From: a virus
IMG/VR virus record: IMGVR_UViG_3300037847_005824
Span: 7,591-31,393 of that record
DNA: 23,803 nucleotides
Direction: 5' to 3' (one strand)
Of this stretch, positions 1,888 to 22,018 are shown piece by piece. Position 1 is the first letter of the stretch. Each line of letters starts with the position of its first letter. The position numbers were made by a program, and so were the translations under genes. The notes beneath the pieces are model-generated. The model did not search any database, was not told the origin of the DNA, and worked only from the letters and a program-made list of their open reading frames with translations.

Positions 1888-2718
1888 TTAATTTCCCCAA
1901 GTTCCCGTACTCCAAGCATCTTCACCCCAACCTCTATTAACTTGTATAGAAACTGTACCTAAAGCACCTGTACCATTTAAACCTGTTTCTGTTATTTCTG
2001 CCTCTGCAGTTTCTGTACCAGTAGCACCTGTAGCACCAATACCTGTAACTCCTGTAACAATTACAAGTAAATTACCATCCCCAGCTAAACCAAAACCCTC
2101 TATTGCACCTGTACCATTTACACCACTTGGTAAAGCTGATAGTGTTAAACTTTCTGTACCAATAGCACCTGTACCGTTTACTCCTGCTTCAGTTATTTCA
2201 CTTTCTGTAACCTGAGTTCCTAAAGCACCTGTACCATTTACTCCTGAAATATTTTTAGAAGTTATAAAGGTTTCTGTACCAATAGCACCTGTACCGTTTA
2301 CTCCTGAAACTGAAACGTCTAAAGTAATAAATAAAGATATTGTACCTAAAGCACCTGTACCGTTTACTCCTGTTACTTCACCAGATGTAAAAAATTCAAC
2401 TTCTGTAAACTCTACAACTCCAACTCCACGCATACCTATGGTTCTAGGTCTGTCTTTAGGATCTAAAAATATATCTCCATAATTATAACCAACATGAAAT
2501 TCAACATTTTCTGGATCGTTGTCTGGTCTTGGCTGAAAAAGAGCAACAGCATCTATTACATTTTTAGGAGGAGTAAGTTGTGGATGCTTTGGGTCGTAGT
2601 CTTCTGGCTCTACCCTTTGACCTTTCCAGTTTGTTTTTAAAGATTTATAAGGAACTTTAAAACCTGAAATATCACTTATTGCATAAGACTTTTTCCCTTT
2701 TGCCCTTTTTATAGCCAT
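1888..2718 (-). CDS. Structural protein with GVNGTGA(I/L)GT tandem repeats (276 aa)
   Basis: The first 100 residues are a non-repetitive, basic then mixed domain (MAIKRAKGKKSYAISDISGF, later PKDRPRTIGMRGVGVVEFTE). Residues about 112-265 contain seven units built on GVNGTGAIGT or GVNGTGALGT, spaced about 20-25 residues apart, with variable beta-prone linkers between them. The last residues are Trp/Gly-rich (RGWGEDAWSTGTWGN). Similar V.GV.GTGA.GTV repeats occur in virion proteins of marine phages, where they probably form stacked beta structures. The role here is unknown, probably tail or fibre-associated. The start codon directly follows the upstream stop (TAA, one base, ATG) and has no clear ribosome site, so translation is probably coupled. 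Nothing suggests an enzyme. Confidence 0.7.
   Translation of the reverse strand: MAIKRAKGKKSYAISDISGFKVPYKSLKTNWKGQRVEPEDYDPKHPQLTPPKNVIDAVALFQPRPDNDPENVEFHVGYNYGDIFLDPKDRPRTIGMRGVGVVEFTEVEFFTSGEVTGVNGTGALGTISLFITLDVSVSGVNGTGAIGTETFITSKNISGVNGTGALGTQVTESEITEAGVNGTGAIGTESLTLSALPSGVNGTGAIEGFGLAGDGNLLVIVTGVTGIGATGATGTETAEAEITETGLNGTGALGTVSIQVNRGWGEDAWSTGTWGN
1957..2375 (-). repeat. Coding tandem repeats (GVNGTGA units)
   Basis: A core of about 28 bases (on the plus strand GCACCTGTACCRTTTACTCC, R = A or G) recurs at roughly 60-base steps near 2163, 2223, 2283 and 2346, with more diverged copies near 1965 and 2105. Copies alternate between two subtypes (preceded by CCAATA or by CCTAAA), so an identical block reappears about 120 bases away. 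This points to duplication of a two-unit block. Confidence 0.8.
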
Positions 2719-4308: not shown

Positions 4309-5217
4309 TTATGCAGCACCCTCTGAACCAAAAACACCTCTCCAGTCAGTAAATCCGAAAGAAAATCTTTCTCTTACTTTGTATCGAACGTTTCCAGTTT
4401 CAAAGTCTCCCTCCATACCTTTTTTCAAAGGTGAACGTTGGAAGTGCTTTAAGCCATCAGGCACATCAGTTTTAACAAAAAATGCATCTGAGTCTGTTAG
4501 TCTACGCATAACGTGATAACCTTGTGGTAAATAACCACCAGACCTAATAGCATTAATGTCGTTGTCTGCTGTTCCTGTTCTAAGTTGTGACTCTAAAAGT
4601 CTTTCTGCAACAAAAGTGTAAGCAGTTGGTATAATTAACATTGTACCTTGTGCTGCAACTCTTAAACCTCTATCATCTTTCATGTCGGCTATTTGAATTA
4701 AAATAGATTCTAAAGATGTTTCAGAAAGGTCAGCAGCAGTTGCAAGTGTGTTACTTTGATTGCCACTTCTAGTTGGGTGGGCTGTGCTAAGTAAAACTAC
4801 ACCGTCACCACCTTCATAACCAGCAGAAGTTGCATTGTTTAAAACATTTGCTGCTTTAATTTCTTTTGTTGATGCCATGGATCTTGCTAATGCTTTTGTA
4901 TACCTAGAAGCAATTGAACCATACTGTCCATCTTCTTCTGCCTCTTCAGTAATACTAAAAGCTAAAGCAATAGTTTCGTGCTGATAACGAGCAGTCCACT
5001 GTTGGCTACCAGAGTCATAAGAAATAGCAGCACCCTCATTTTTCACTGGTGCAGTGCCAAATCCCTCTAGTAAAACATCCTCTTCAAATGCTCTGTTTGA
5101 AGTGTTTGCTTCAAAAACAGCTGCATATTCTGGAGGATACGAATCGTACTCAAGACCAAACAAAGTGTTTAGTCCTGGCTCTAACATTTTTGCAAATTGT
5201 GCTCTATTCATTGCCAT
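4309..5217 (-). CDS. Major capsid protein (302 aa)
   Basis: The protein resembles the Mu gpT-like group of HK97-fold major capsid proteins. The N-terminus MAMNRAQFAKMLEPGLNTLF is followed by Y.SYPPEYAAVFE, then a conserved helical part (ITEEAEEDGQYGSIASRYTK, then ALARSMASTKEIKAANVLNN) corresponding to the long spine helix. Next comes the segment DGVVLLSTAHPTRSGN, typical of this family, and a C-terminal beta region (NVRYKVRERFSFGFTDWRGV). It would form the icosahedral shell. The gene has a strong ribosome site (AAGGAG, 8 bases before ATG), lies downstream of the scaffold, and is followed by a terminator hairpin, as expected for the most abundant protein. Length fits this group (about 300 aa). 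Confidence 0.85.
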   Translation of the reverse strand: MAMNRAQFAKMLEPGLNTLFGLEYDSYPPEYAAVFEANTSNRAFEEDVLLEGFGTAPVKNEGAAISYDSGSQQWTARYQHETIALAFSITEEAEEDGQYGSIASRYTKALARSMASTKEIKAANVLNNATSAGYEGGDGVVLLSTAHPTRSGNQSNTLATAADLSETSLESILIQIADMKDDRGLRVAAQGTMLIIPTAYTFVAERLLESQLRTGTADNDINAIRSGGYLPQGYHVMRRLTDSDAFFVKTDVPDGLKHFQRSPLKKGMEGDFETGNVRYKVRERFSFGFTDWRGVFGSEGAA

Positions 5218-7245: not shown

Positions 7246-7608
7246 TTAATCTAAATAAGAAGTAATTTTAACACCGTCAGGTAAAATTGCTGTAACTTCG
7301 TCATCGTTCAACAGCAAATATTTTTTACCGTTTACAATGAGTTTTTGACCAGCATATTTACCATATGTAATAAAATCACCTACCTTTGGCCAGTTGCGAG
7401 ACTTCCACTTATCACCTGTTTCTCTGTCTCTATATGCCAACTCACCCATAGCTAAAACTTCCCCATGAGCAGTTAAGTATTCTTCTGCATCTTGGGCTTT
7501 GCTTGGTATTACTATGCCACCTTGAGTTTTTTGTTTTGGTTCATTGGGTTTAATTAAAACTTTCCAGCCCAATGGCACTGGTAAAGTGTTTTCATGTTGA
7601 TGAGACAT
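7246..7608 (-). CDS. groES: GroES-like co-chaperonin (120 aa)
   Basis: The sequence matches the GroES (Cpn10) pattern: PVPLGWKVLIKPNEPKQKTQ then GGIVIP at residues 30-35, followed by GEVLAMGELAYR, then VGDFITYGKYAGQKL and a C-terminal LLLNDDEVTAIL. The hydrophobic IVI in the mobile loop is where GroES binds the GroEL apical domain. The enzyme partner would be host GroEL, capping its folding chamber, probably to fold the capsid protein, as T4 gp31 does. I start it at the ATG at 7608, since AGAGG lies 9 bases before it. The frame also has ATGs at 7626 and 7617, but these fall within or too near that ribosome site and overlap the upstream gene. The upstream stop is one base before this ATG, suggesting coupling. 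Confidence 0.88.
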   Translation of the reverse strand: MSHQHENTLPVPLGWKVLIKPNEPKQKTQGGIVIPSKAQDAEEYLTAHGEVLAMGELAYRDRETGDKWKSRNWPKVGDFITYGKYAGQKLIVNGKKYLLLNDDEVTAILPDGVKITSYLD

Positions 7609-9107: not shown

Positions 9108-12100
9108 TTACTTTATACCTCCTAGTGCTCCGATTGTTGGTTGTTGACCAAATTTTTTCTTCATCTCTGGAGTAATTTTTATATAATTTACAAAAGGTAT
9201 AATACCGTTAGGATTATTTTTTTTATCATATTTTATAAAAGCAAAATCTGTTACATCACCATCACCACTTACACTATGTGTTTCCCGATCACTGACATTA
9301 AAAAACATTTGATCCATGTCTGGTAAGTCTGCCATTTGTTCAACTGTTAAATTTTTAAAGTTTTCATTATCAAAAACCATCTTTGTTGGGGCAACGTCAT
9401 TTAAATGATTTTCAGTTTGTTCTTTAAGACTGAACGGTCTTTCATAACTTTCTCTATTAAAATACCCATCTGCTTCATTCCAAGCATGCAAATTAAAAGG
9501 TTTCATTCCTGTCAGACCATCATTGTAAAAAACATCACCATCTTCATCTTGCTCCGTATAGGTTTTTCTATATAAACCAGATATTCCAAATTGCCCTGTT
9601 TCACCATCATACTTTTTAGAAACTTTTTCTAAAAACTTAGGTATTTTTTGATTGTATAAATTTTTATAAAAAATTTGATAATCGTCACCCCATTTATCCA
9701 TTAACATACTAGCCCTAGGAATAGCAACATAATCATAACCCTCATTTATAGCTTTCATTATTGCGTTTTTTAAAAGTATTTCATGATAGTCTTTTTCATA
9801 CGGAAAAGCATTTTTTAAATCGTTAACATATTTTTTAATATAATTTGCTCCAGGATCATTAGGATCTTCAAATACTTTTTTTATAAAATCTTCTGCTTGT
9901 TTTTCTATTTCGCTAATAATTACAGGAACGTCTGATTGGAGTTCGTCTACATATAAAACTTTATCATAATCTTCATTTTTAATATTAAAAAAACTATTAG
10001 CATACTCGTCTGGGTTTGAATAATCTTTGTCGTAAAAATTACCTAACTCTCTAGCATCTACAACTCCACGATCAGACAAAAGTAAATTACCAAACGGCAT
10101 ACCTTTTTTAAAATAAGTGTCTGCTGTTCTGTAGTGATTTCTACGTTGTATTATACTGTCAGCTTTTTTAAAAAAATTTGCTACTGCAGGTTTAGCCATG
10201 AACAACTGTTGTTCGTTGTCAACAGACGATTCTAAAATGTGTTTGTTTGCTGAGTTCCATGTAAGTGGGGTTGCAACTTCGTAAAGTTTTTTACTATCTA
10301 AAACAAACTCCCTTTTATTACCACCACCAACACTTTGGTAAGTTATGTATTTTGCTGGTACATTACCAACTTTTAATTTTTTAGCTCTTTCATCGCCAAT
10401 TAAACCTAAACTTTTTAAACCGTTTACAATTTGTAATGAAGATTCGTTGTCTGAAGATTTTTTAAAAGCACTACGAACACCATCTGCCATAATCCAGTTT
10501 GGTGGCACTCTGTCCTCACCAAGATAACCTTTAAGTTCTTCAATATTAGTTATATCTACATAACCCTCTTTACCACCTTTACCTTTGTCCCATAAAATTT
10601 TAGGACTAGCATTATTTTCATCCCATTTACCTCTAGTAATAAAATTGTGAGTGTTACCCTGATTGTCTTTAATAGATCTTTGTATTGCTCCGTCTGTTAA
10701 AAGTTGGTAGTCGTTAGGAGTTAAATCTTTAGGGTTAACTCTATCACTCATGTTTTTAACGTCTTTTTGATAATTTTGTAATGCGTTAGCCCTTAATTTT
10801 AAAAGTTCTTGGTACTGGTCTATTGTTTTATTAAAAACTTCCTCATCTCCACCATTTAGTAAAATTAAATTATTCAAATCATCACTGGCTCTATTTTTAG
10901 ACAAATTAATATCTGTTAAATTTTCATACATAAAAGATTCATCGTTTATGTATCTTGGGAAAACTTTTTTAAATTTATCTGCGCCAAATTTTTCAAAATA
11001 ATTAATTTTATAAATTTCATTAAATAACTCAGCATCTCCTGTATTGTTAGCATAGTTAAATCTACGACGACTATCAAAAACATTTTTAGGATAATTATCG
11101 TCTTTTTCACGACCAAGTTTAGCAGCAAGATAATTTATAGACAAAGGATCTGTTTCAATAGTAGACTTGTTATTGTTGTAAAGTTTTGCCCAATTATCAG
11201 AAGTATCATACTCACTTAAATACTGTACTTTACTTAAAATATCACTTTTAAGACCAATACTGTCAGCTTTAACTATGTAGTTTTTTAATGCAGAGTAGGT
11301 TGAGTCGCTTAAAAGCAAAGGACTCATACGAACAGCATTACGAGTGCCTCGTATTGTTGGTAAATTAACAGCATTACCTGATTGTGTTGGGAAAAAGTTA
11401 TAAATATCACCTATTAAAAGAGTTTTAATTGAGTTTAAATCTTGAGGAGATGGGTCTCCTGCTCCATCGTAATCTCCAAACTCATTTAAATTTAGTTTAC
11501 TATCCTCTTTTAAACCTCTATATTTGTCCCAGTTTACAATATGATAACTTCTTATTTTATCATAGTCTTTTTTAGTAAAAGTACCATCTTTAGCTAAGTC
11601 TTTAAATTCGTCTGGAAAAAACCTTTTTAACTTTTCTACTTTTAAAACTAACCCTGTAATGTTTTCAGGAATAATATCGTCTGAAGATCTAGGTATAAAA
11701 GTGTCGTTATTACCTAACCATCTAAAAAATTTACCCGACGTGTTAACAACAGCACCGTCACTATTAGCATAAGATTCATTAAAACGGTTTAAAGGATAAA
11801 TTATTTCTTCTGCTTGTTTACTTTTAAAATTAGGTAAAGCCACACCGTCAAAAAACTTTTCATACTTATAACTAGTTTCAGATAAAAAATTTTCATTACG
11901 AGCTCTACGACTACGATCATTTAAAGAAGTAGGACTATCGTTAAACTCACTCTCATAATTAACAAAGTCTTTATAAAATTCGTTAAATTCAGGATCTAAA
12001 CCATATACCATTCTTAAGTCTTTATTGATTGTAGGTTGGTTTTTTAATGGCATTTGATCTGCGTAATTATTTATTGATTCAAATTTAAAAGTTGATGGTG

Positions 12101-13184
12101 TAGCTAAATTATTAAAACCGTTCTCGTTATCAAAAAACAGTCTTTGAAGTGCATTGATGTTAAGTGGATTTTGATTAATCATTTCTTGAACATCTTCTAA
12201 AGACTCCTCACTTGAACTTCCAAAAGAATCAAAATCAAGTTTTTCAGTAGGTTGATTTCCACTAGGAATTAAGTCTGTGGCTTGTATTTCAAAATTATTT
12301 TTACCTATAAAGTCTAAAACTTCCTGTTGAGTAAATTCAGGTTTAGAATTTAAAAAGTCTAGTAAACCTGTGGCTTTTATTTCACTGTCTTTTAATGGGA
12401 AACCTTGTTTATTGGATATTTTTTTTAGTTCGTTTAAAAATGCTTGACCTGAACCTTTTTTACGGACTAAAAATTTTGAAGACTCTTGCAAAGGACTAAA
12501 AAAATAATTATCAGGAGTTAAATTACTTAAAGCACCTAACTCAAAACTTTTATTATCACCAGTAGGCACAACACCAAACACTCCCATGTTTAAAAAATTT
12601 TCTACACTTTTAGGCATTTGACGAGGTAAAAGTTTACTTTTATTTTTTTCAACCACACCTGCTACAAAATTTATACCACTTTTAGTTAAAGGAAATGCTT
12701 CCGCAGCAGAAAGACCAACATCTAAAACAGGCATAAAAGAGTCTGTCATGCTGGCAGTTGGATCACCTGCCTCTAGTCTTTTTTGAAGTTCGTCTAGTTC
12801 TCCTACTGCTCTTTCACCTGTAAAATATACACCAGCAGGAGTAAAATCTAAAGCACCTATGCCACCTTGACTTAAAGGTGCTCTGTAGTCACCTACTATA
12901 AAACGTGATGCTGTTGCTGCAGTGCCAAAAGGTACTGAAAACCTTTTATTTAAAACATCTGTTACAAAGTTTCTAACTTTGTCTTGAGAGGTTTCTGTGT
13001 ATGTACTGAAGTAAGGTTGGTTTTCTTTTTTGTATTGCTCTATTTGTTCTTTTGTGATTGGTATAGGTTGGTTGTTTTTTAAGTTAGTTTCCTTAGGATC
13101 AAAAAAATCAGTAACAGGTTCAACTACCTTTTTTTTAAAATCTTGTAAAAAACTAGGGAATATACTACTTTTTTGTTCAGCCAC
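9108..13184 (-). CDS. Giant multi-domain protein with ELQSD-type module, probable virion-internal or ejected protein (1358 aa)
   Basis: This is the longest gene here. The N-terminal 200 residues include GIGALDFTPAGVYFTGERAV, a motif I have seen near the start of large marine phage proteins. The middle (200-880) is Asn/Asp/Lys/Phe-rich with no domain I recognise. From about residue 945 a recognisable module starts: KYITYQSVGGGNKREFVL (resembling a GG.NYRE motif), then VLYVDELQSDV near 1079 (resembling VLFIEEIQSDWHQ), then AIMKAINEGYDYVAIPRA (resembling the A...GYD.IA.T segment), and finally ITPEMKKKFGQQ near the C-terminus (resembling the TPEMR...GQ ending). This module occurs in large polyvalent phage proteins; its biochemical activity is unknown to me. 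The start codon is GTG and shares one base with the preceding TAG. Ejected protein is inference from size and position. Confidence 0.75.
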   Translation of the reverse strand: MAEQKSSIFPSFLQDFKKKVVEPVTDFFDPKETNLKNNQPIPITKEQIEQYKKENQPYFSTYTETSQDKVRNFVTDVLNKRFSVPFGTAATASRFIVGDYRAPLSQGGIGALDFTPAGVYFTGERAVGELDELQKRLEAGDPTASMTDSFMPVLDVGLSAAEAFPLTKSGINFVAGVVEKNKSKLLPRQMPKSVENFLNMGVFGVVPTGDNKSFELGALSNLTPDNYFFSPLQESSKFLVRKKGSGQAFLNELKKISNKQGFPLKDSEIKATGLLDFLNSKPEFTQQEVLDFIGKNNFEIQATDLIPSGNQPTEKLDFDSFGSSSEESLEDVQEMINQNPLNINALQRLFFDNENGFNNLATPSTFKFESINNYADQMPLKNQPTINKDLRMVYGLDPEFNEFYKDFVNYESEFNDSPTSLNDRSRRARNENFLSETSYKYEKFFDGVALPNFKSKQAEEIIYPLNRFNESYANSDGAVVNTSGKFFRWLGNNDTFIPRSSDDIIPENITGLVLKVEKLKRFFPDEFKDLAKDGTFTKKDYDKIRSYHIVNWDKYRGLKEDSKLNLNEFGDYDGAGDPSPQDLNSIKTLLIGDIYNFFPTQSGNAVNLPTIRGTRNAVRMSPLLLSDSTYSALKNYIVKADSIGLKSDILSKVQYLSEYDTSDNWAKLYNNNKSTIETDPLSINYLAAKLGREKDDNYPKNVFDSRRRFNYANNTGDAELFNEIYKINYFEKFGADKFKKVFPRYINDESFMYENLTDINLSKNRASDDLNNLILLNGGDEEVFNKTIDQYQELLKLRANALQNYQKDVKNMSDRVNPKDLTPNDYQLLTDGAIQRSIKDNQGNTHNFITRGKWDENNASPKILWDKGKGGKEGYVDITNIEELKGYLGEDRVPPNWIMADGVRSAFKKSSDNESSLQIVNGLKSLGLIGDERAKKLKVGNVPAKYITYQSVGGGNKREFVLDSKKLYEVATPLTWNSANKHILESSVDNEQQLFMAKPAVANFFKKADSIIQRRNHYRTADTYFKKGMPFGNLLLSDRGVVDARELGNFYDKDYSNPDEYANSFFNIKNEDYDKVLYVDELQSDVPVIISEIEKQAEDFIKKVFEDPNDPGANYIKKYVNDLKNAFPYEKDYHEILLKNAIMKAINEGYDYVAIPRASMLMDKWGDDYQIFYKNLYNQKIPKFLEKVSKKYDGETGQFGISGLYRKTYTEQDEDGDVFYNDGLTGMKPFNLHAWNEADGYFNRESYERPFSLKEQTENHLNDVAPTKMVFDNENFKNLTVEQMADLPDMDQMFFNVSDRETHSVSGDGDVTDFAFIKYDKKNNPNGIIPFVNYIKITPEMKKKFGQQPTIGALGGIK

Positions 13185-13381: not shown

Positions 13382-13639
13382 TCACCATGCTTTACAAGAC
13401 CAATATCTTGCCTTTGTTTTTGGTCCAGGATTATCACAATTATGTCTACTTCTAAAGTTACTTCTGCGACCTTTTTGATTTTTTTTAATTTTCATATTTG
13501 GGTCGCCAAAAGTTACCCTGACAACTCTTTCACCGTCTTTAACAAAAACCACTGACTTTTTTTTACCGTAACTTGTTTCTCCTTTACGAATATATCTAGG
13601 ACTGTTTAAAGTTACTTTTTTACCTTTATAAGTAGCCAT
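13382..13639 (-). CDS. Conserved basic phage protein with RHNC...YWSC motif (85 aa)
   Basis: The N-terminal half is a small beta-type domain (MATYKGKKVTLNSPRYIRKG, then SVVFVKDGERVVRVTFGDPN). The C-terminal half is strongly basic and carries the pattern NFRSRHNC, then KTKARYWSCKAW at the very end. I recognise the full pattern (GDP.M.I...N..RR.NFR.RHNC......KTKA.YWSC..W) as a conserved family in marine phages, with unknown function. Conserved His and Cys residues could bind a metal ion, though this is inference. A ribosome site (AAAGG, 9 bases before ATG) is present. The high charge and location in a run of basic proteins suggest contact with packaged DNA or with the head interior. Confidence 0.72.
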   Translation of the reverse strand: MATYKGKKVTLNSPRYIRKGETSYGKKKSVVFVKDGERVVRVTFGDPNMKIKKNQKGRRSNFRSRHNCDNPGPKTKARYWSCKAW

Positions 13640-13791: not shown

Positions 13792-13940
13792 GCTCGTTTT
13801 CTCCTAACAGTTTTTGCTGCAGATTTAAAATTAGCTTTTGTTGGTGCACCTTTTGCTCCTGGTTTTTTCATACGTTCACCACTACCAGCTTTAATTCTTT
13901 TACGTTTTGCGTGTATGTTTGCGTATAGTCCTTTTTTCAT
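13788..13940 (-). CDS. Small basic conserved phage protein, MKKGLYANIHAKR type (50 aa)
   Basis: The frame starts at ATG 13940 and runs 50 codons. It begins MKKGLYANIHAKRKRIKAGS, then carries GERMKKPGAKGAPTKANFK, and ends in a Lys/Arg cluster (KTVRRKRA). This is one of the most recurrent short proteins in marine phage structural operons, always unassigned. It overlaps the upstream DUF-like gene by 4 bases and the downstream gene by 4 bases (ATGA at both ends), so the genes form a tightly coupled chain. Its strong positive charge would allow nucleic acid binding, which is inference. Confidence 0.72.
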   Translation of the reverse strand: MKKGLYANIHAKRKRIKAGSGERMKKPGAKGAPTKANFKSAAKTVRRKRA

Positions 13941-14224
13941 GCTTTTTTCTTTTTCCCTTTTTTAAGTAAATCTGCGTCTGCCTTACGAGCACCACCTTTA
14001 CCAGTGGCAAAACTTCTAACCCTACCTATTGCCCAACTTGTAGGTGTTTGTCCAGGACGAGAGCCTGACGAATAGTAAGCACCCATGCCTCTTTTGGCAA
14101 CTTTACGGAGTTTGTCTTTAGAAAAACCAGACGACTTACTATACTTGTCTATTGCTGCTTCTAGACCACCACCTTTTTTAGTCTTTTTTTTAGCTGTACT
14201 TTTTTTTGTAGCTTTTTTTGACAT
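13937..14224 (-). CDS. Basic protein with DUF5824-like domain (95 aa)
   Basis: Flanking Lys-rich tails (MSKKATKKSTAKKKTKKGGG at the start, LLKKGKKKKA at the end) surround a compact core: RKVAKRGMGAYYSSGSRPGQ, then TPTSWAIGRVRSFATGKGGA and RKADADLL. This core pattern (R.....G.GAYYSSGSRP.QT...WA..RV.SF..GKGG....D.DL) is what I remember as DUF5824, found in phages and some large viruses; the name is from memory and was not checked. Function is unknown. A strong AAAGGAG ribosome site precedes ATG. The start overlaps the previous gene by 35 bases in a different frame. The Lys-rich tails suggest binding to nucleic acid. Confidence 0.72.
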   Translation of the reverse strand: MSKKATKKSTAKKKTKKGGGLEAAIDKYSKSSGFSKDKLRKVAKRGMGAYYSSGSRPGQTPTSWAIGRVRSFATGKGGARKADADLLKKGKKKKA

Positions 14225-14527: not shown

Positions 14528-15136
14528 TTAATCCTCTGTTTTATATTTTAATTTTGATTTTGGTATAATGTTTTCAAACTCTGTGGCAGCACCCTCAAAA
14601 AGTTCTCCAAATTTATCAAATATTTCTTGATCAGTTGCATTAGGAAACTTTTGTTGTAACTCGTCAATCATCTTTTCTAAAAAACTTCCTTCAAAACCGT
14701 CTGGAACTAGCGCATCATTATCTATTGCTTCAGCGATAAAATCAGCATCACTCATGAAAGGTAAATAATCCAACATCAAGCTCGTTGGACCTTCATTATC
14801 TATTACTAATTTAATTTCATCCACTAATTTATTTCTAAAAACATCTAAATCACTTAATTTAAAATCTAAAAAAGGAGTTTCTTTAACTGGTTCAACAGAC
14901 TCTAACCCTTTTTTTACTAAGTTTGTTAATGCGCCACGAGGTAACATTGTTTGTAGTGCTGCACCTCCAGCCCTTTTTAAAAAGTCTCTACGTTGCGCAG
15001 GTACAACTTCCTGTTTTTCTACAGGTACAACTTCCTGTTTTTCTACAGGTACAACTTCTTTAGACTCTTTTAAATTACCTAAAGCTCCTAAATTTTTAGG
15101 TAATATTCCTTTTATAATTTTAGTTATTTTAGCCAT
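14528..15136 (-). CDS. Leader-family paralogue 3, Tat-like RRDFLK motif (202 aa)
   Basis: The N-terminal 75 residues are almost the same as in two neighbouring genes: MAKITKIIKGILPKNLGALG, then NLKES, a linker, then RRDFLKRAGG (twin Arg at 49-50) and MLPRGALTNLVKKGL. The linker is expanded by an 8-residue repeat (EVVPVEKQ twice, then EVVPAQ). The C-terminal part is acidic and helical, and shares only short patches with the others (for example KFPNATDQEIFDKFGE, compare EYPDADKQQLADLIGE in paralogue 1). RRDFLK matches the core of twin-arginine export signals, but the following hydrophobic stretch is short and broken by Pro-Arg. I do not recognise the family. Virion cargo or ejection protein is a guess from location. 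The ATG has no clear ribosome site. Confidence 0.65.
   Translation of the reverse strand: MAKITKIIKGILPKNLGALGNLKESKEVVPVEKQEVVPVEKQEVVPAQRRDFLKRAGGAALQTMLPRGALTNLVKKGLESVEPVKETPFLDFKLSDLDVFRNKLVDEIKLVIDNEGPTSLMLDYLPFMSDADFIAEAIDNDALVPDGFEGSFLEKMIDELQQKFPNATDQEIFDKFGELFEGAATEFENIIPKSKLKYKTED
15001..15058 (-). repeat. 24-bp tandem repeat inside paralogue 3
   Basis: Two perfect 24-base copies (15001-15024 and 15025-15048) and a 10-base partial third copy encode the repeated EVVPVEKQ linker. It lies between the GALGNLKES block and the RRDFLK block and does not occur in the other two paralogues, which have shorter linkers. The copies are identical at DNA level, so the expansion looks recent. Confidence 0.85.
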
Positions 15137-15139
15137 ATT

Positions 15140-15808
15140 TTAATCATCTTCTAAAATTATTTCTAAAAATTCTGTTATTTCTGGATCTTTGTAACCTGAT
15201 TTTTTCAACCTATTTACAAATAAACCTAACAAATCCTGTGTTTGCTGTTTTCTTTTAACAAATTTTTCTGGAGTTAAATTGTAACTTTTTAATATACTTT
15301 TAATTTCATCTACATAATCTTGCTCTGTGTCAGGCAAATAATCGTTATTTGGTGTTTGTTGAATTCCATGCGTATAATTAAAAAAGTTATTAACATCTTC
15401 ATCAGAAAGTGAATCAGCATTAATAAACTCTTCAGAATCGCCTGCCTCTCTAAAATAAAAATCTTCTATCAAATCTTTTGTAGAAGGATCTTCATTTACC
15501 ATATCATCTATAGATGCCTTTTTAAATTCCATAGAGTTAATAAGTTTGTTTTTAAATCTATTTATTGGTATATCTGGTTTAGTTTCAACAGACTTTAGTC
15601 CTTTTTCTACTAAATTTGTCAATGCACCACGAGGCATTAAACTTTGAACAACTGTTCCTCCAGCCCTTTTTAAAAAATCCCTACGTTCCGCAGGTACAGT
15701 TTCCTGTTTTTTGTCTAATGATACAATGTCTTTAGGCTCTTTTAAATTGCCTAAAGCACCTAAATTTTTAGGTAATATGCCTTTTACAATTTTAGTTATT
15801 TTAGCCAT
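15140..15808 (-). CDS. Leader-family paralogue 2, Tat-like RRDFLK motif (222 aa)
   Basis: The leader reads MAKITKIVKGILPKNLGALG, NLKEPKDIVSLDKKQETVPA, then ERRDFLKRAGG (twin Arg at 42-43), SLMPRGALTNLVEKGL. From about residue 70 on the protein is mostly acidic and helical, with NRFKNKLINSMEF (similar to the first helix in the other two), SDEDVNNFFNYTHGIQ, and an end that is Leu/Glu-rich (DPEITEFLEIILEDD). There is no catalytic motif I recognise. It lies 3 bases from the next paralogue's start, and 24 bases after the stop of paralogue 1. No clear ribosome site is seen before its ATG. It is certainly homologous to its neighbours through the leader; the function is unknown. Confidence 0.65.
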   Translation of the reverse strand: MAKITKIVKGILPKNLGALGNLKEPKDIVSLDKKQETVPAERRDFLKRAGGTVVQSLMPRGALTNLVEKGLKSVETKPDIPINRFKNKLINSMEFKKASIDDMVNEDPSTKDLIEDFYFREAGDSEEFINADSLSDEDVNNFFNYTHGIQQTPNNDYLPDTEQDYVDEIKSILKSYNLTPEKFVKRKQQTQDLLGLFVNRLKKSGYKDPEITEFLEIILEDD

Positions 15809-15832
15809 ATTTTAATTTTTTACCAAATAACA

Positions 15833-16645
15833 TTATTTTACCTTTTTTCCAAAATTTGTTTTACCTGTTTCAATTAATTTATCCATATTATCTAAAATCC
15901 ATTCTTCCTGTTGTTTGGCATCTTTACCTCCTTTTACAAGAGTGTTATAAACTTGACCAGCCCATGTATAAATATATTTTTTTTGATTATCTGTTAATTC
16001 ATTAAATCTTTCAGGTTCATTCATATTTGGAATAAGATCCCAATCTATAATTCCTTTTATTTGAGTTTCAGCTATTTTTTTTATTTTTGGGTTTTTACTT
16101 TTAAGATCTTGAGTTTGTTTCCAATATGTGTCTCCTGCTTGATTAGATTCTCCAATTAAATCTGCTAATTGCTGTTTATCAGCATCAGGATACTCTTCCA
16201 TCATTGATATAACAAGTTCATTAGGTTTTCTTTTACCACCGTACCTGAAAAATTCATATGCTTTTTTTATTCCTGGTACAATCACATCTTCATCAACTCC
16301 AAACAAAACTGATTCATAATCTCCTTTTTCAGCAAGCTCCTGAACATCTTCTCCGTATCTACCTTTCAAAGCTAACAAAATTATTTCTTCATCCATTAAT
16401 TTTTTAAAAGAAGAAACATCAAAAATATTTTTTGGTAAAACTTTTTTTGGAACTTCTGTTAATCCTTTTTTTACTAAGTCTGTTAATGCGCCACGAGGCA
16501 TTAAACTTTGAGCAACTGTCCCTCCAGCCCTTTTTAAAAAATCTCTACGTTCAGCAGGCACAACTTTTTTAGATTCTTTTAAATTACCTAAAGCACCTAA
16601 GTCTTTTGGCAGGACACCTTTTATAATTTTAGTTATTTTAGCCAA
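15833..16645 (-). CDS. Leader-family paralogue 1, Tat-like RRDFLK motif, TTG start (270 aa)
   Basis: This is the longest of the three. Its leader is MAKITKIIKGVLPKDLGALG, NLKESKKVVPAERRDFLKRA (twin Arg at 33-34), GGTVAQSLMPRGALTDLV. The start codon would be TTG at 16645, chosen because the protein aligns with the other two from this residue. The body is helical and has IISMMEEYPDADKQ-like and DLIPNMNEPERFNELTDNQK segments; the C-terminus is basic (FGKKVK). No enzyme motif was recognised. The gene follows the 93-aa acidic gene by 8 bases and lies in the portal-proximal group, where virion-internal proteins would be expected. Ribosome site is weak. The homology of the three is clear; the role is unknown. 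Confidence 0.65.
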   Translation of the reverse strand: MAKITKIIKGVLPKDLGALGNLKESKKVVPAERRDFLKRAGGTVAQSLMPRGALTDLVKKGLTEVPKKVLPKNIFDVSSFKKLMDEEIILLALKGRYGEDVQELAEKGDYESVLFGVDEDVIVPGIKKAYEFFRYGGKRKPNELVISMMEEYPDADKQQLADLIGESNQAGDTYWKQTQDLKSKNPKIKKIAETQIKGIIDWDLIPNMNEPERFNELTDNQKKYIYTWAGQVYNTLVKGGKDAKQQEEWILDNMDKLIETGKTNFGKKVK

Positions 16646-16653
16646 AAAAAACT

Positions 16654-16935
16654 TTACTCGTCTATTCTAAGTTGACCATGACCTAAAATTTTATCCATCA
16701 TCAATCTAGCATCTTCACCACCAAGTTTTAAAACTTTAACCTCGCCCATTGTATCTTCGTCGTGGTAGTTTTCTGACTCGTCGTCTTCTTCTATGTAGTC
16801 TTGGTTACACAAAAGCATAAAATTAACTAACTGTTCATCAGTTAAATTTAAACCGTCTGCGTTACGAGAAAAACCCATCTTATTTTCAAACTGTTCCTCT
16901 AAAGACTGTACATCGCCTACATTTACTGGTTCCAT
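16654..16935 (-). CDS. Small acidic protein (93 aa)
   Basis: The protein is acidic, rich in Glu, Asp, Asn and Met: MEPVNVGDVQSLEEQFENKM, then LNLTDEQLVNFMLLCNQDYI, then a run of Asp/Glu, and KILGHGQLRIDE at the end. I do not recognise it with certainty. A GAGG site 9 bases before the ATG supports translation, and the previous stop is one base before the ATG. It may be a small chaperone or assembly partner for the portal or for the leader-family proteins; this is not shown by the sequence. Confidence 0.55.
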   Translation of the reverse strand: MEPVNVGDVQSLEEQFENKMGFSRNADGLNLTDEQLVNFMLLCNQDYIEEDDESENYHDEDTMGEVKVLKLGGEDARLMMDKILGHGQLRIDE

Positions 16936-16936
16936 T

Positions 16937-17134
16937 TTACTTTACCTCTTTCATTAAATTGTTTAAAGCACCTATGCCTTGTGGTGCACCCATACGTTGT
17001 TTAATTTCTTGAATTTTTTGCATTAAATAATTAGTCATTTGCTCATTATTTATCGTCATTGGCGTTTGCTGTTGATTAACATTACCACCTGAAAAAGCAT
17101 TTGGGTTTATTGGTGGTAGGTTAAGTTTGTTCAT
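16937..17134 (-). CDS. Small Gln/Asn/Pro-rich protein (65 aa)
   Basis: The start is MNKLNLPPINPNAFSGGNVN, then a Gln-rich stretch, then a helix (MTNYLMQKIQEIKQRMGAPQ) and the end GIGALNNLMKEVK. That last piece resembles the GALGNLKE block in the leader of the three following paralogues. The first 14 bases overlap the 3' end of the portal gene, with GGAG 10 bases before the ATG. It is possibly a co-made small partner of the portal. I do not recognise a family. Confidence 0.55.
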   Translation of the reverse strand: MNKLNLPPINPNAFSGGNVNQQQTPMTINNEQMTNYLMQKIQEIKQRMGAPQGIGALNNLMKEVK

Positions 17135-19574
17135 TTTTTCTTTGCTCCATTATTATTTTAGCTGAATTTTTTTCTCGTTCAAGCTGTAATTCAGTTTCTA
17201 GTTTTTTGATTTTTGCTTGTAAGTCTGCATCAGCTTTAGCTTTGTCTATTTGCATTTTTTGAGATGCTTCAGCTTGTTTAATTTGAATGTCAGACTGTGC
17301 TTTGGCTTGGTCTGCTGCAATTTGAGATTGAGTCCTTTGCTGAAGTGCTTGTGCTTCAAGTTGGGCAAGTTGTTGTGCATATTCTAATGGGTTTTGTTGT
17401 TGATTTTTGGCTAAGTCTGCAATGCCTTTTATTTGTTGCATTTGTGGTGCTTGTGCTACTACTTGTGCAGCACGTTGACTAATTAACATGTCTAACTCAG
17501 GATTAATATTATCAAACGCAAAATCTTTATCCCTTAAATTAGGTAAATTAGGTAATGGCATGGCGACACTTTGTTGCATACGTTCACGGTAAAGTAAAGC
17601 AATATGCTCAGCAATATGAGCAGTTAACACTGGACCAATACTTTGTTGTGTTACAGGATTGCCTGCTAAAGAAGGATCTTGCATAAATTGTAAATGCACG
17701 TCAATATGTGACTGATGATCCTGTTCAGGGAATGCCTTTATTGGTTTACCGTACATGACTGAAAGGTTTTCGTCTATTGGGTCTAAACGTGGTGCAAGTT
17801 TTGGTTCTTTTAATATTTCGTCAATATTAGGTATACGGATTGCTTCGTACATACGTTTGTATGCTTCGTATATGTCGTGAAGTTCTGGAGCACTGTTTGC
17901 CATTTGTAAAACTGCTTGTGCTTGAGCAATACGTTGTGCAGTGCTGAAAATGTTTGGATCACTAACAGGTACAACGTCTATTTTTTTATCAAAATCCGTA
18001 GCATAAACTAAATTACTACCATCTGTACTATTAAATTCAAACGAGTCAGGTAAATGTTCAGTGTTTAAAAGTGCTATGAGTTTAAACTCTTCACCTTGCG
18101 AGTGGTGTAAACGTTTATGTATGGCGCTGAAACTTTTACTACCTTGTTCTATGAGGGCAACAGTTGAACCCACTGGCGCATTAGGATTAACATCTCCTAC
18201 TTGTAAGTCTGCTGTGGCAGCAAAACGTTGACCAGCATTAATAACAAAACCTAAAAGTTGAAAAAGTGTACCACTTGGCTCTTTAAACGGTAACGGCATA
18301 ATAGACTTGCTTATGTCGTCTACTGTTGCGTCTAAGTCTACAAACTCTCCAGGATTAACTTCAATATCTCCACCGTTCACTCTGCCTTTTAGTTTAAAGC
18401 CACCTTGCATATTGGCAAAACTTGCTGAATCTAAAAGTGCTCTTAAAGCACCAGTTGCAGCTTTACCTAGTCCACCAATTAAATGATAAAGTCCAAAACC
18501 ATAAAAACCTAGTCCTGGAAGAAACTTATAACTAACAAACCAATTACGTTTATTTTTTTCTTCATCCTGTTCAAACCAGTTACGTCTAACACTAACTATT
18601 TTTTCTGAATCTGCATCTACGGTAACAATGTAAGGTAAAGCGACCTCGTTTTCATTTTGCTCACTAGGTTCATCAAACGACTGGTAAACGTGCATTTCTA
18701 AAAGTGTAACCATTTGATCAGTAGCATCGTCACCAAACCTATCAACACCCTCAATCTCACCAACAGTATCGTCATTATAAGTTTCGTCTACTTCTTGCTG
18801 ACTTTTAATTGGTAAGTAATAACCGTTTTTAACATATTTATTATACTCATTTTTAGGAATCCTAATAACGTGAGTGTAACGGTTAGATGTTATTAAGTCT
18901 TCACTTTCTGGTGAAACAACAAAGTCTTCTGCCTTTACAAAAATAGACCTTTGACGGTTTAAGTTAGCATCCCACCATACTTTTTTAAACGTTTGACCTA
19001 CTAGTGGTAAGTGAAAAAGCATTTGGTCTAGTTCAGGAAAATACTCTGGCATTTGCTGAGTTATTTGAAAGTTCATAAAATCTTTAACTCTGCGTGCTTG
19101 GTTTTCTAACTCTTCGTTTTGCTCACCTACAATTACAGTTTTAACTGGACCACCACTAGGGTACAACTCTGTAATGGCTCTTGCGTTAAATTGTGTTGCT
19201 GCCTCAGCAATCATAGGATGTACAACTGTACTTAAACCACGTGTTGCTCGTTCTTCTTCGTTTTCTTCTAAGCCACCCTCTACGTCTAAAGTTTTAAGTC
19301 CTTCTTTGTAACGTCTTTCCCAGTCTGATCTTGACGACTTGTCATTTTGGTAACAAGTTAACAACTCACTAGCTATACGGTCTAAAATTCTTTGATCAAT
19401 GGTTTCTGCTAAATTTTCATCAAACTGTGACTCTACTTGTTCAGGTGCAGAGTCTAATTGTGGGTCGCCAACTAAAACTTCGTTGTCGTTTAGTTTTTCT
19501 ACTTGTAAGTCGTCTGGTGGTGCACCCTCGGCAAAAGGTATATTGTTAATTGGTGGTTGTTGTTGTTCAGCCAT
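17121..19574 (-). CDS. Portal protein (817 aa)
   Basis: This is a long, mixed alpha-beta protein with the features of P22-like portal proteins in marine phages. It has an N-terminal disordered acidic part (residues 1-50) and a conserved block ERRYKEGLKTLDV, then RGLSTVVHPMIAEAATQFNA and AITELYPSGGPVKT. A stem-type region around WWDANLNRQRSIFVKAEDFV follows, with a loop block KFLPGLGFYGFGLYHLIGGL and the GDVNPNAPVGSTVALIEQGS motif. The last 85 residues are Ala/Gln/Lys-rich coiled coil (QRTQSQIAADQAKAQSDIQI), which fits the long helical barrel that P22 gp1 extends into the capsid. It forms the dodecameric channel through which DNA enters and leaves. It overlaps the terminase gene by 8 bases. 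P22 portal is about 725 aa. Confidence 0.85.
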   Translation of the reverse strand: MAEQQQPPINNIPFAEGAPPDDLQVEKLNDNEVLVGDPQLDSAPEQVESQFDENLAETIDQRILDRIASELLTCYQNDKSSRSDWERRYKEGLKTLDVEGGLEENEEERATRGLSTVVHPMIAEAATQFNARAITELYPSGGPVKTVIVGEQNEELENQARRVKDFMNFQITQQMPEYFPELDQMLFHLPLVGQTFKKVWWDANLNRQRSIFVKAEDFVVSPESEDLITSNRYTHVIRIPKNEYNKYVKNGYYLPIKSQQEVDETYNDDTVGEIEGVDRFGDDATDQMVTLLEMHVYQSFDEPSEQNENEVALPYIVTVDADSEKIVSVRRNWFEQDEEKNKRNWFVSYKFLPGLGFYGFGLYHLIGGLGKAATGALRALLDSASFANMQGGFKLKGRVNGGDIEVNPGEFVDLDATVDDISKSIMPLPFKEPSGTLFQLLGFVINAGQRFAATADLQVGDVNPNAPVGSTVALIEQGSKSFSAIHKRLHHSQGEEFKLIALLNTEHLPDSFEFNSTDGSNLVYATDFDKKIDVVPVSDPNIFSTAQRIAQAQAVLQMANSAPELHDIYEAYKRMYEAIRIPNIDEILKEPKLAPRLDPIDENLSVMYGKPIKAFPEQDHQSHIDVHLQFMQDPSLAGNPVTQQSIGPVLTAHIAEHIALLYRERMQQSVAMPLPNLPNLRDKDFAFDNINPELDMLISQRAAQVVAQAPQMQQIKGIADLAKNQQQNPLEYAQQLAQLEAQALQQRTQSQIAADQAKAQSDIQIKQAEASQKMQIDKAKADADLQAKIKKLETELQLEREKNSAKIIMEQRKNEQT

Positions 19575-21021
19575 ACATTGTCATCCTTTTTTGAGAAAAA
19601 TCTTTATATTCATAATTGTTATCTTCATAGTCTGTAGAGTGCGTTAAAAAATATCCTTTTCGTAGTCTTAACCATGCTTGGGTACAAGTGTCTACAATAT
19701 CGTCATTGTCTCCTGCAGGAAAAGCAGAACATATTTCTATTAAGTCCTTTGCCCATTTTCTATTATAAGGATAATATATTTTGCCATCTTCTAAAAGCAC
19801 TGAAGAAGAATGCGCACGTGCAACTTTATCACGATCTGGTAAGTATGATAAAACAGGGATTCCTGCCATGCGTAAGTCTTGTAATAAACTTTGACCAGAT
19901 GCCTTTTTTTCTATTAACACTGCGTCTGGTTCGTATTCTTCGTAACTTTGTTGTGCTATTTTACGCAAATCAGGATAACTCACCCTACCATACCACATAT
20001 CTAAAACAATAGCACAAACTGAACCTTTGTGAGTAAATGCTCCCCATGTTGTGCGTGCAGAGTAGGAAGTTTTTTCTTTTTCACTAAACGCAGTATCCCA
20101 GCTTTGTATAACGTAGTCTATTTGAGGCAGGTCGTCTTTTTCCCATGGAACCCACCACTCTTTTTTTAAAATACCACCACCTTTGGGCATTGGTCTTTGT
20201 TGTAACTGACCTGCAGATGCATAACTACCTAAACTTTTTTCTAAAACAGTAAGTGTGTTATTGTCTATTCTTTCTGGCCATAGTAACTGACCTTCTTTAG
20301 TTCTTGGGTCTGTAAAAAATAATTTTGACTTTGTAGGTGTTGGGTGTCCTATTTCGTATCTTGCTGGTAAGCATAAATGATCCCATTCATTTTTTAAATC
20401 GTTAGCTATGATGTGTCCTGTTAAGTCGTTTTCATGCACCCTTTGCATAATTATTACAAAACAGCCTGTTTTTGGATCGTTAAGTCTGGTTTGCATAGCT
20501 TGGTCCCACCACTCTAAAACACCTTGTCTAACTGTAGAAGATTCTGCCTCACGCACATTATGAGGATCATCAATAACAATAATATCTCCACCCTCACCTG
20601 TCAAAGCACCATCTACACTAGTGGCAATACGATAACCAGTTTTATTGTTTTCAAAACGTTGCTTTTGATTTTGGTCAGTAGTTAACTCAAAACTATCACC
20701 AAAGTAACTCTTATACCATGCACTGTCAATTAACCGTCTACACTTTACAGAATCTCTAATAGATAAACTGCCTGCATAACTTGCAAAAAGAAAACGTTTT
20801 TGCGGACAATGAGTCCATGTCCATGCAGGTAACGCAACAGCAACACTAATAGACTTCATGTGTCTTGGGGGAATGTTTATTATTAGTCTTTTTATTTGCC
20901 CATTGACAACTGCTTGTAAATGTTCACTTACTGCATCTATGTGCCAGTTGTCGTAAAAATCACGTCCTGGTTCAATTGTCCCCCAAGAGTTTTTGGTGAA
21001 CTCCTTCAGAGACCTCTTCAT
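19567..21021 (-). CDS. terL: Terminase large subunit (484 aa from the chosen start)
   Basis: This ATPase-nuclease motor packages DNA into proheads. Motifs, numbered from the chosen Met: a deviant Walker A, PPRHMKS, at 51-57; Walker B IIVIDD at 147-152; a coupling-type motif IMQRVHENDL around 191-200; then the RNase H-like nuclease with QSWDTAF (Asp at 309), LIEKKASG (Glu at 371) and GDNDDIVDT (Asp at 440, 441, 444). The layout fits the large-terminase group with PPRH.KS. I chose the ATG at 21021. The longer frame to 21087 would overlap the upstream gene by 116 bases and adds residues unlike the family, whereas the conserved part starts with SLKEFTKNSW right after this Met. Neither candidate has a strong ribosome site. 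The gene ends overlapping the portal by 8 bases. Confidence 0.9.
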   Translation of the reverse strand: MKRSLKEFTKNSWGTIEPGRDFYDNWHIDAVSEHLQAVVNGQIKRLIINIPPRHMKSISVAVALPAWTWTHCPQKRFLFASYAGSLSIRDSVKCRRLIDSAWYKSYFGDSFELTTDQNQKQRFENNKTGYRIATSVDGALTGEGGDIIVIDDPHNVREAESSTVRQGVLEWWDQAMQTRLNDPKTGCFVIIMQRVHENDLTGHIIANDLKNEWDHLCLPARYEIGHPTPTKSKLFFTDPRTKEGQLLWPERIDNNTLTVLEKSLGSYASAGQLQQRPMPKGGGILKKEWWVPWEKDDLPQIDYVIQSWDTAFSEKEKTSYSARTTWGAFTHKGSVCAIVLDMWYGRVSYPDLRKIAQQSYEEYEPDAVLIEKKASGQSLLQDLRMAGIPVLSYLPDRDKVARAHSSSVLLEDGKIYYPYNRKWAKDLIEICSAFPAGDNDDIVDTCTQAWLRLRKGYFLTHSTDYEDNNYEYKDFSQKRMTMYG

Positions 21022-21517
21022 TTTCTCTGCTTTCACCTGATTCAACGACAGACTGCTCAATAATTCTTTCAATTGTTCCGAGGTCATTGTCTGATATTCT
21101 ACTAATGTCTATAATTTTTTTCTCTTCAACTTGTGCCTTTACTTCAACTGCCTTTAAATCTGGCACACATTTACCTAGTAAAGTTTTTGCAGCCAAAACT
21201 CTTAATTCTGGATCTGCGCAAATTTTACCCATGTCTGTAACTATGCCGTCAGAACTTTGACTATAAACGGGAAACATTTCTTTTCCCTGCATAACTTGTG
21301 CTAAAAAACCCACTGGATCAGCTTGTCCCATAATCCAGTTAATTGTTGCATGGTGATTCCACTTATAACGTTCTTTTCTGGTTCTTGATGGCTTTTGATT
21401 TTTCATTGGTTCAACGGATTTAAACCTACCATCCCAAGACTCTGGTTTAACAGGTGGACCATCTTTGACAGGTCTTTTAACTTGTACTTTTTCTGAAACG
21501 TGTTTTTTATTACTCAT
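20972..21517 (-). CDS. Putative terminase small subunit (181 aa from the chosen start)
   Basis: It is the first gene of the minus-strand block, directly upstream of the large terminase and overlapping it. A basic linker comes first (MSNKKHVSEKVQVKRPVKDG), then DPVGFLAQVMQGKEM, then ADPELRVLAAKTLLGKCVPD followed by LKAVEVKAQ, then a Glu/Ile-rich helical end. The block PELR..AAK.LL....P.LKAVE is similar to what I know from packaging proteins of related phages that recognise DNA ends and hand them to TerL. I start at the ATG at 21517. A TTG 27 codons earlier would add a very hydrophobic Phe/Leu stretch read from A/T runs and hairpin sequence, which looks non-coding. No strong ribosome site is seen. 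Confidence 0.6.
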   Translation of the reverse strand: MSNKKHVSEKVQVKRPVKDGPPVKPESWDGRFKSVEPMKNQKPSRTRKERYKWNHHATINWIMGQADPVGFLAQVMQGKEMFPVYSQSSDGIVTDMGKICADPELRVLAAKTLLGKCVPDLKAVEVKAQVEEKKIIDISRISDNDLGTIERIIEQSVVESGESRENEEVSEGVHQKLLGDN

Positions 21518-21592
21518 AAACCAATAAAACTGAAAACTTAATAAAAATAAGTGTAATGTATTTTTTAAAAAAAATAAAGTAAAAAAAGAGAT

Positions 21593-21634
21593 GCCCAAGC
21601 TAACTTCTCGGGAGAAAAGCTATAATACTTGGGC
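21593..21634. other. Nested stem-loop element in the divergent intergenic region
   Basis: Outer arms GCCCAAG (21593-21599) and CTTGGGC (21628-21634) pair perfectly and enclose a second hairpin with TTCT/AGAA arms and CGGG as loop (21605-21616). The interior also holds AGCT at both sides (21598-21601 and 21618-21621), which could pair instead of the outer stem. Read on the minus strand, the outer stem is followed by ATCTCTTTTTTT, which makes it look like an attenuator or terminator upstream of the late genes. Read on the plus strand it precedes the small membrane peptide and could be a leader structure. Direction is undecided. Confidence 0.5.
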
Positions 21635-21667
21635 AAAACTAAGAGGGTATATTATTTATATTATAAT
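21621..21667 (+). promoter_or_regulatory. Possible promoter(s) for the membrane mini-ORF
   Basis: Perfect TATAAT hexamers lie at 21621-21626 (inside the hairpin element) and 21662-21667. Neither has a good TTGACA at the right distance. The stretch between them is almost pure A/T, so chance matches are likely. The downstream hexamer is 33 bases before the ATG of the mini-ORF and is the more sensible candidate. Confidence 0.3.
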
Positions 21668-21699
21668 TTATATAATAAAAAATAAAAGGAGGAATTATC

Positions 21700-21783
21700 A
21701 TGTTCATTGTAGACATTATTTACACACTAATTATAGCTGTTGTAGTTGCTATGGGTATTATTATAATGCTAGATAAATATTAG
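21700..21783 (+). CDS. Single-pass membrane micropeptide (27 aa)
   Basis: An ATG at 21700 is preceded by AAAAGGAGG, 7 bases away, one of the best ribosome sites in the window. The 27-residue product begins MFIVDIIYTLIIAVVVAMGI and ends in LDKY. About 20 consecutive hydrophobic residues, with Asp at position 5 and Asp-Lys near the end, predict a single membrane span. Function is unknown. Small phage membrane peptides include holin-like, antiholin and superinfection-exclusion proteins. It is alone between the two divergent gene blocks and is followed by a hairpin with a T-tract, so it probably forms its own small transcript. It is too short for standard ORF callers. Confidence 0.55.
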   Translation: MFIVDIIYTLIIAVVVAMGIIIMLDKY

Positions 21784-21793
21784 GCTGGATAAC

Positions 21794-21839
21794 AAAAAAG
21801 TTACCAAACACTGGTATACGTTACCACTAACTTTTTTTT
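21794..21839 (+). terminator. Terminator-like hairpin after the micropeptide
   Basis: The arms AAAAAAGTTA (21794-21803) and TAACTTTTTT (21828-21837) pair perfectly over 10 bases. Inside them TGGTA (21812-21816) pairs with TACCA (21822-21826). The T-run continues to 21839. With an A-run on one side and T-run on the other, it could terminate in both directions. It lies 10 bases after the micropeptide stop codon. The stem is weak in G/C, so efficiency is uncertain. It overlaps two copies of the GTTACCA heptamer. Confidence 0.5.
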
Positions 21840-21902
21840 CTGGTAACCATTCAACAGTGCAGTAAAAAATACTGTCTTGAAAAAAAGTTACCACAGTTAC
21901 CA
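21800..21902. repeat. GTTACCA heptamer array
   Basis: The heptamer GTTACCA occurs at 21800-21806, 21820-21826, 21887-21893 and 21896-21902, and inverted (TGGTAAC) at 21841-21847. The last two forward copies are part of a 9-base tandem repeat (GTTACCACA twice). The inverted copy can pair with the copy at 21820 across 14 bases or with the copy at 21887 across 39 bases, the latter loop holding another small hairpin (CAGTA/TACTG, 21860-21874). Such clustered short repeats upstream of early genes often bind a regulator or replication initiator. Which applies here cannot be told from sequence. Confidence 0.65.
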
Positions 21903-22018
21903 CAATTATTGAAATTTTAGGAATGAAAAAAATTTCCCTGATTTCTTTTCTTATAGTATAAAATAGAATATAATTAGTTTATCTACTGAGAAAGTTTTAC
22001 TGAGAAAGGAGTATAAGT
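21903..22018 (+). promoter_or_regulatory. Promoter and leader region of the plus-strand gene block
   Basis: The stretch is AT-rich with an interrupted palindrome (GAAATTTT at 21911-21918 and AAAATTTC at 21929-21936), followed by TATAAAAT (21957-21964) and TATAAT (21969-21974), either of which could be a -10 element. No TTGACA-like -35 is seen at standard spacing. An 11-base direct repeat TACTGAGAAAG occurs at 21984-21994 and 21998-22008. The second copy runs into AAAGGAG, the ribosome site 8 bases before the TTG start of the next gene. The palindrome may be an operator. Confidence 0.45.

Follow-up and report, generated by a model that had tools for sequence, protein, structure and literature searches.

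We have analysed a stretch of 23,803 nucleotides (the window) from the IMG/VR virus record IMGVR_UViG_3300037847_005824 (positions 7,591 to 31,393 of its 40,002 bases), in which the structural genes are of the type found in a marine group of tailed phages. Downstream of the portal gene and two small genes it carries three tandem genes on the minus strand, here called g1, g2 and g3 (14528-16645; Table 1), that start with a common leader and go on into different bodies. The leader constitutes a separable module whose bodies are exchangeable, and its core is one instance of a short protein motif, hydrophobic-G-A-L-x-x-hydrophobic (the GAL motif), enriched among the proteins encoded between the portal and the major capsid genes (the interval) in one clade of phages. 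We consider it probable that motif and leader represent a clade-specific sorting signal for proteins carried inside the virion.

A separable leader with exchangeable bodies

The leader, which reads MAKITKIIKGILPKNLGALGNL, is 63-79 residues long and is 76-84% identical in amino acids and 82-85% in nucleotides among g1-g3, and the bodies have no significant pairwise similarity (best E=0.022 for g1 vs. g3; E=0.86 for g1 vs. g2). A first-pass annotation, made from the letters of the window alone, had described precisely this arrangement of a common leader and diverged bodies. Its term “paralogues” is justified for the leaders but not for the bodies, and the patch that it had aligned between two of these (EYPDADKQQLADLIGE against KFPNATDQEIFDKFGE) is marginal. 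The DNA-level comparison that it proposed gives, by codon, a synonymous divergence (dS) of 0.41-0.57 and a non-synonymous divergence (dN) of 0.08-0.13 between the window leaders (dN/dS ca. 0.15-0.3). The leader is thus more than a very recent copy and is under purifying selection at the protein level.

Each window leader contains LGALGNL and RGALT[ND]L. A third element, [AV]GALVPL, appears in the leaders of three of the related records described below (G001, G003 and G005), and some leaders have LGSLGNL or LGSLANL. All of them also contain a stretch of the type RRxFLKxAG, with RR, F and K invariant and the RR 33-49 residues from the start; nearly all have the form RR[DE]FLKxAG, and G005 has the variant RREFVKKAA. 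In an AlphaFold model of g2 (mean predicted local distance difference test, pLDDT, of 52, with a helical body, not fit for a fold search) the confidence over the leader was low (<50), as for a flexible tag.

A search for the leader gave no match in 50,697 annotated phage records, nor in the 84,980 bacterial and archaeal genomes of a species-level genome collection. We found it in four further IMG/VR records (G001, G002, G003 and G005), which represent three distinct phages (G001 and G002 have 1 difference in the 10.2 kb compared), always at the same locus; among the related loci, several are fragments of contigs. G001 has a tandem pair of leader genes: the body of one is of the g1 type, that of the other is new. 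The g1 body has its orthologue in the gene that comes first among the leader genes of G001 and G002 (L084 4405-5001). In G003 and G005 the body behind the leader is of the g2 type, and the leader gene is preceded by an ADP-ribosyltransferase (ART)-like protein of 364/357 residues (match to PF18760 at E=1e-3, below the cut-off), that starts with a shortened leader, LGSLANL..LGALSKI. The g3 body type has so far been seen only in the window phage. Other phages thus have the leader, at this very locus, on at least one body type beyond the three of the window, which is what the search with the leader alone, suggested in the first-pass annotation, was expected to reveal of a portable tag. A leader confined to its known bodies, which would have spoken against such a tag, is not what is seen.

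Leaders and bodies have separate histories. In a codon tree the three window leaders form one clade (support 100/100), i.e., leaders group by phage and not by body, and the approximately unbiased (AU) test rejects both the grouping of the g1 leader with its G001 counterpart (p=0.0003) and a grouping of leaders by the g2 body type (p=0.002). The bodies, in turn, match between phages (g1 with G001, E=6e-29; g2 with G005, 5e-10, and with G003, 1e-5). Since the leader tree follows the phage and the bodies match across phages, leaders have been homogenised within each genome or re-attached. The sister phages G003 and G005 show a replacement of the body itself: dS is 0.02 in the leader and 0.69 in the body, and DNA identity is 94-98% in the leader, falls directly behind it to 63-73% in the body and recovers afterwards (ca. 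90-100% over most of the compared flanks). The border between leader and body has clearly been a site of recombination. These separate histories and the body replacement between sisters are the reason for calling the leader a module, and together with the other bodies seen behind it they give good support to the portable tag that had been proposed.

One sister of the same pair has a complete 250-residue ART-like gene with the C-terminal VGALNLLGATNGESEN (L175:4470-5222) that is cleanly absent from the other (L191); it was assigned from the appearance of its sequence, Pfam giving no match. A locus of another phage, L089, was rejected as a member of the leader family, as it has in common only the RR stretch (an internal SRREFLKKAG) and its neighbours are unrelated. 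The same SRREFLKKAG occurs internally, at residue 86, in a 360-residue protein of an unrelated phage (L178:10669-11751).

The GAL motif between the portal and capsid genes

The interval that holds g1-g3 closes with a gene for the co-chaperonin GroES, a scaffold-like gene and the capsid gene. Related phages fill it with different genes, many of which have a GAL element close to one end, so that the leader core LGALGNL is one case among many, a point that the first-pass annotation had missed. For the survey, genes were called mechanically (longest non-overlapping open reading frames) and grouped into families by BLAST single linkage; a family was counted as positive when the majority of its members carried the extended motif [LIVFYMA]GALxx[LIVMF]. 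Among relatives with a portal identity of at least 60% (the discovery set), 19 of 72 interval families were positive vs. none of 101 families outside the interval (Fisher test, 1.2e-8). Shuffled proteins gave a mean of 0.53 families (maximum 4 in 300 shuffles), and the permuted motifs GLA, AGL, ALG, LGA and LAG gave 0-1 families. GAL also came first in an unbiased ranking of all tripeptides (28 families vs. 5.6 expected). The consensus was [LYIFM]-G-A-L-[GPS]-[DN]-[LI], and the motif lay near a protein end in 18.6 of 22 families vs. 9.9 expected.

The result was reproduced in an independent validation set of 82 new records, restricted to 23 families without homology to the discovery set. GAL again ranked first among tripeptides (11 families vs. 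1.8 expected), and the extended motif was found in 5 of these 23 families vs. 0 of 92 controls (p=2e-4), shuffles giving a mean of 0.18 families (maximum 3 in 1000). More distant relatives (portal identity <60%), which served as negative control, had no GAL enrichment (0 of 52 families), and the signal is thus specific to one clade. This clade includes the CRP-901-type roseophages, which resemble the window phage in their portal (69% identical), their gene order and the presence of the motif, and differ in having no RR-containing leader and other genes in the interval. In the window phage itself the extended motif occurs in five genes only, all of them in the interval: g1-g3, the gene of a 65-residue protein and that of a 1358-residue protein. 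Its codons differ from gene to gene, which indicates that it is kept as protein.

Of all carriers, the family of the 65-residue protein behind the portal is the most widespread; 60 of its 78 members keep the motif. Most carriers have no known domain, but some have domains of effectors. A carrier in L166 has an ART-PolyVal domain (E=1.3e-7) and the motif at both ends, another in L175 (5225-5749) an ART-PolyVal domain (6.6e-18) together with the variant GVLGGL, and gp66 of CRP-901 a PBECR5 nuclease domain (3.4e-15). The g1-g3 proteins gave no match above the cut-off and no credible effector domain in Pfam, PHROG and NCBIfam, and a PDB sequence search with the g2 alignment gave no credible match. 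In CRP-901 (L181) four further carriers, gp31, 32, 35 and 36 (15096-21935), lie in the late region, at its far end; one of them is annotated as a virion structural protein. The four may form a second group of proteins inside the virion, and in CRP-902, too, carriers occupy the far end of the late genes. The replication half of both phages has only a non-extended GAL occurrence.

A putative sorting signal and its alternatives

The reading that we favour makes the leader a sorting tag of modular type, with the GAL motif at its centre. In the marine clade of CRP-901-type roseophage relatives this motif sits mostly near the N- or C-terminus of many otherwise unrelated interval proteins. During head assembly it would dock its carriers to a partner that they all share on the inside (capsid protein, scaffold or portal; the major capsid protein, with matches to PF25209, 4.6e-15, and PF10124, 1.7e-7, is a candidate docking surface), and the docked proteins would be enclosed in the virion and delivered to the host along with the DNA. 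The leader of g1-g3 would be an elaborated version, in which a conserved RRxFLKxAG helix lies between two or three G-[AS]-L elements, and its conserved DNA would permit the recombination by which leaders are homogenised within a genome and bodies swapped behind them. Packaging, docking and injection are what we infer from the genes: the packaged cargo suggested in the first-pass annotation gains support only indirectly, from the position of the genes, from the motif on predicted injected effectors and from the analogy with phage T4.

Several points weigh against this reading. The motif was first spotted by eye in the discovery set, so that only the validation set is unbiased. Part of the interval proteins do not have it, and in some it is internal. 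Some carriers, e.g., the 65-residue protein, may be structural parts and not cargo. The AlphaFold model of the capsid protein had a pLDDT of 36, and the low confidence over the leader may merely come from the shallowness of an alignment with 7 rows. Much of the same pattern would also be produced by a motif for binding to a host protein once injected, or by a site for a maturation protease.

This last alternative, in which GAL would be recognised or cut by the head-maturation protease, leader or tail being removed inside the prohead and targeting residing elsewhere, has a precedent in T4, where the short N-terminal targeting sequences of internal proteins are removed by gp21 (PMC9026906). The mostly terminal position of the motif would suit it as well. 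However, the motif occurs two or three times per leader and is internal in some proteins, no protease gene was recognised in the examined part of the window (in a search that was not exhaustive), and the core is closer to a docking motif than to well-known prohead-protease sites, so that we regard a protease site as quite improbable. Somewhat less improbable, though still unlikely, is that the motif is an assembly interface of head-tail structural parts (plug, neck or internal core) and no tag of injected cargo. The prominence of the 65-residue protein next to the portal (motif in 60 of 78 members) and the far-end late-gene carriers of CRP-901, with their annotated structural protein, fit such a role, but assembly parts are usually conserved, whereas the carriers vary strongly among close relatives and their enzyme domains (ART, PBECR) are gained, lost and swapped.

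The RR[DE]FLKxAG stretch raises the question of a twin-arginine (Tat) export signal that would send the bodies to the periplasm of the infected cell, as in the six members scanned the Tat model TIGR01409 aligns with this part of the leader. All scores are nevertheless below the cut-off (12.3-16.1 bits vs. 16.7) and only the RR half is matched. The hydrophobic part is interrupted (uncharged residues continue for at most 11 positions behind the motif, up to an invariant Arg; best 12-residue hydropathy 0.65-1.11), and the stretch is internal. Other carriers of the motif, including the ART-like protein with the shortened leader, do not have the RR stretch. Judging by these features, Tat export of the leader proteins seems very unlikely. 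As little credit can be given to the leader as a mere recombination anchor in a fast-evolving cluster, with no sorting role and an incidental GAL: the recombination at the border is what such an anchor predicts, but the low dN/dS of the leader and the differing GAL codons speak against it, as does the presence of the motif in unrelated families, while neither distant relatives nor the control genes of these same phages have it; by a narrow margin this is the least likely of the alternatives.

Only in a few model phages is it known in detail how the proteins enclosed with the DNA are chosen, and in the literature searched (mainly outside subscription journals) we found no phage cargo motif of this kind. 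If the sorting signal is real, a short motif on dozens of unrelated proteins of widespread marine phages would allow the cargo of uncultured phages to be read from sequence. The motif would also point to undescribed injected effectors, most carriers being without known domains, and would offer a compact tag by which proteins could be loaded into phage heads.

Known systems and neighbouring genes

The T4 internal proteins IPI-IPIII also have a common N-terminal tag on diverged bodies that vary among relatives, and the ADP-ribosyltransferase Alt is among the packaged and injected proteins (PMC9026906); ART domains are found among the carriers here. The likeness is one of logic and presumably not of sequence. 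The leader is much longer than the T4 tag (63-79 residues, not ca. 10), its core motif is found at C-termini too, and the phage lineage is different. The T4 capsid-targeting sequence, an N-terminal stretch of ca. 10 residues, presumably has no resemblance to the leader tag (no alignment was made). As to polyvalent effectors, a survey (PMC5512222) presents ART-PolyVal and PBECR domains as likely packaged in the virion and injected, and the same domains, in the same place among virion genes, are found on our carriers, although g1-g3 themselves match none of them; the passages of the survey that we consulted describe no shared sorting motif.

The targeting peptides of encapsulins (LTVGSLRR, GSLxIGSLK and TVGSLIQ; consensus in PMC10960027) are likewise short terminal hydrophobic-G-[AS]-L motifs on unrelated cargo, and the inner face of a shell with the HK97 fold serves as their receptor. 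Here the shell gene codes for a phage capsid protein and no encapsulin, GAL is followed by x-x-hydrophobic rather than by a basic residue, and both termini are used. This resemblance in logic and partly in letters, which is not homology, is a lead only, but through it a link between the loading of cargo in viruses and in cells becomes testable. We entertain as a tentative and rather doubtful extension that GAL is a general cargo-loading peptide of one lineage of tailed phages, docking diverse effectors on the inner face of an HK97-type shell, a viral counterpart of the encapsulin GSL peptides and possibly the kind of system in which encapsulin loading has its origin.

Table 1. Position of the genes, leaders and sequence elements in the window.
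Feature	Position	Strand	Remarks
Major capsid protein	4309..5217	-	Phage_capsid_4, Mu gpT-like; far side of interval
1358-residue large interval protein	9108..13184	-	LGALSNL at residue 216; C-terminal IGALGGIK at 9114-9134
g1	14528..15136	-	202 residues; leader + body type 1
g1 leader, residues 1-79	14900..15136	-
g1 LGALGNL	15071..15091	-
g1 RRDFLKRAGG (Tat-like)	14963..14992	-
g1 RGALTNL (second GAL element)	14918..14938	-
g2	15140..15808	-	222 residues; leader + body type 2
g2 leader, residues 1-72	15593..15808	-
g2 LGALGNL	15743..15763	-
g2 RRDFLKRAGG (Tat-like)	15656..15685	-
g2 RGALTNL (second GAL element)	15611..15631	-
g3	15833..16645	-	270 residues, TTG start; leader + body type 3
g3 leader, residues 1-63	16457..16645	-
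g3 LGALGNL	16580..16600	-
g3 RRDFLKRAGG (Tat-like)	16520..16549	-
g3 RGALTDL (second GAL element)	16475..16495	-
65-residue protein behind portal	16937..17134	-	C-terminal IGALNNL at 16955-16975
Portal protein	17121..19574	-	phrog_1216, E=7e-36; upstream border of interval

Among the neighbouring genes, a 93-residue acidic protein (16654-16935) without the motif is conserved in many close relatives, at an almost unchanged position (42 members in its family), and is a possible adaptor. The interval also contains two small, very basic and conserved proteins free of the motif (13382-13639 and 13937-14224; phrog_7595; DUF5824, E=5e-11). Elsewhere in the window (1888-2718), a 276-residue protein contains a repeat resembling GVNGTGA[IL]GT, in several copies.
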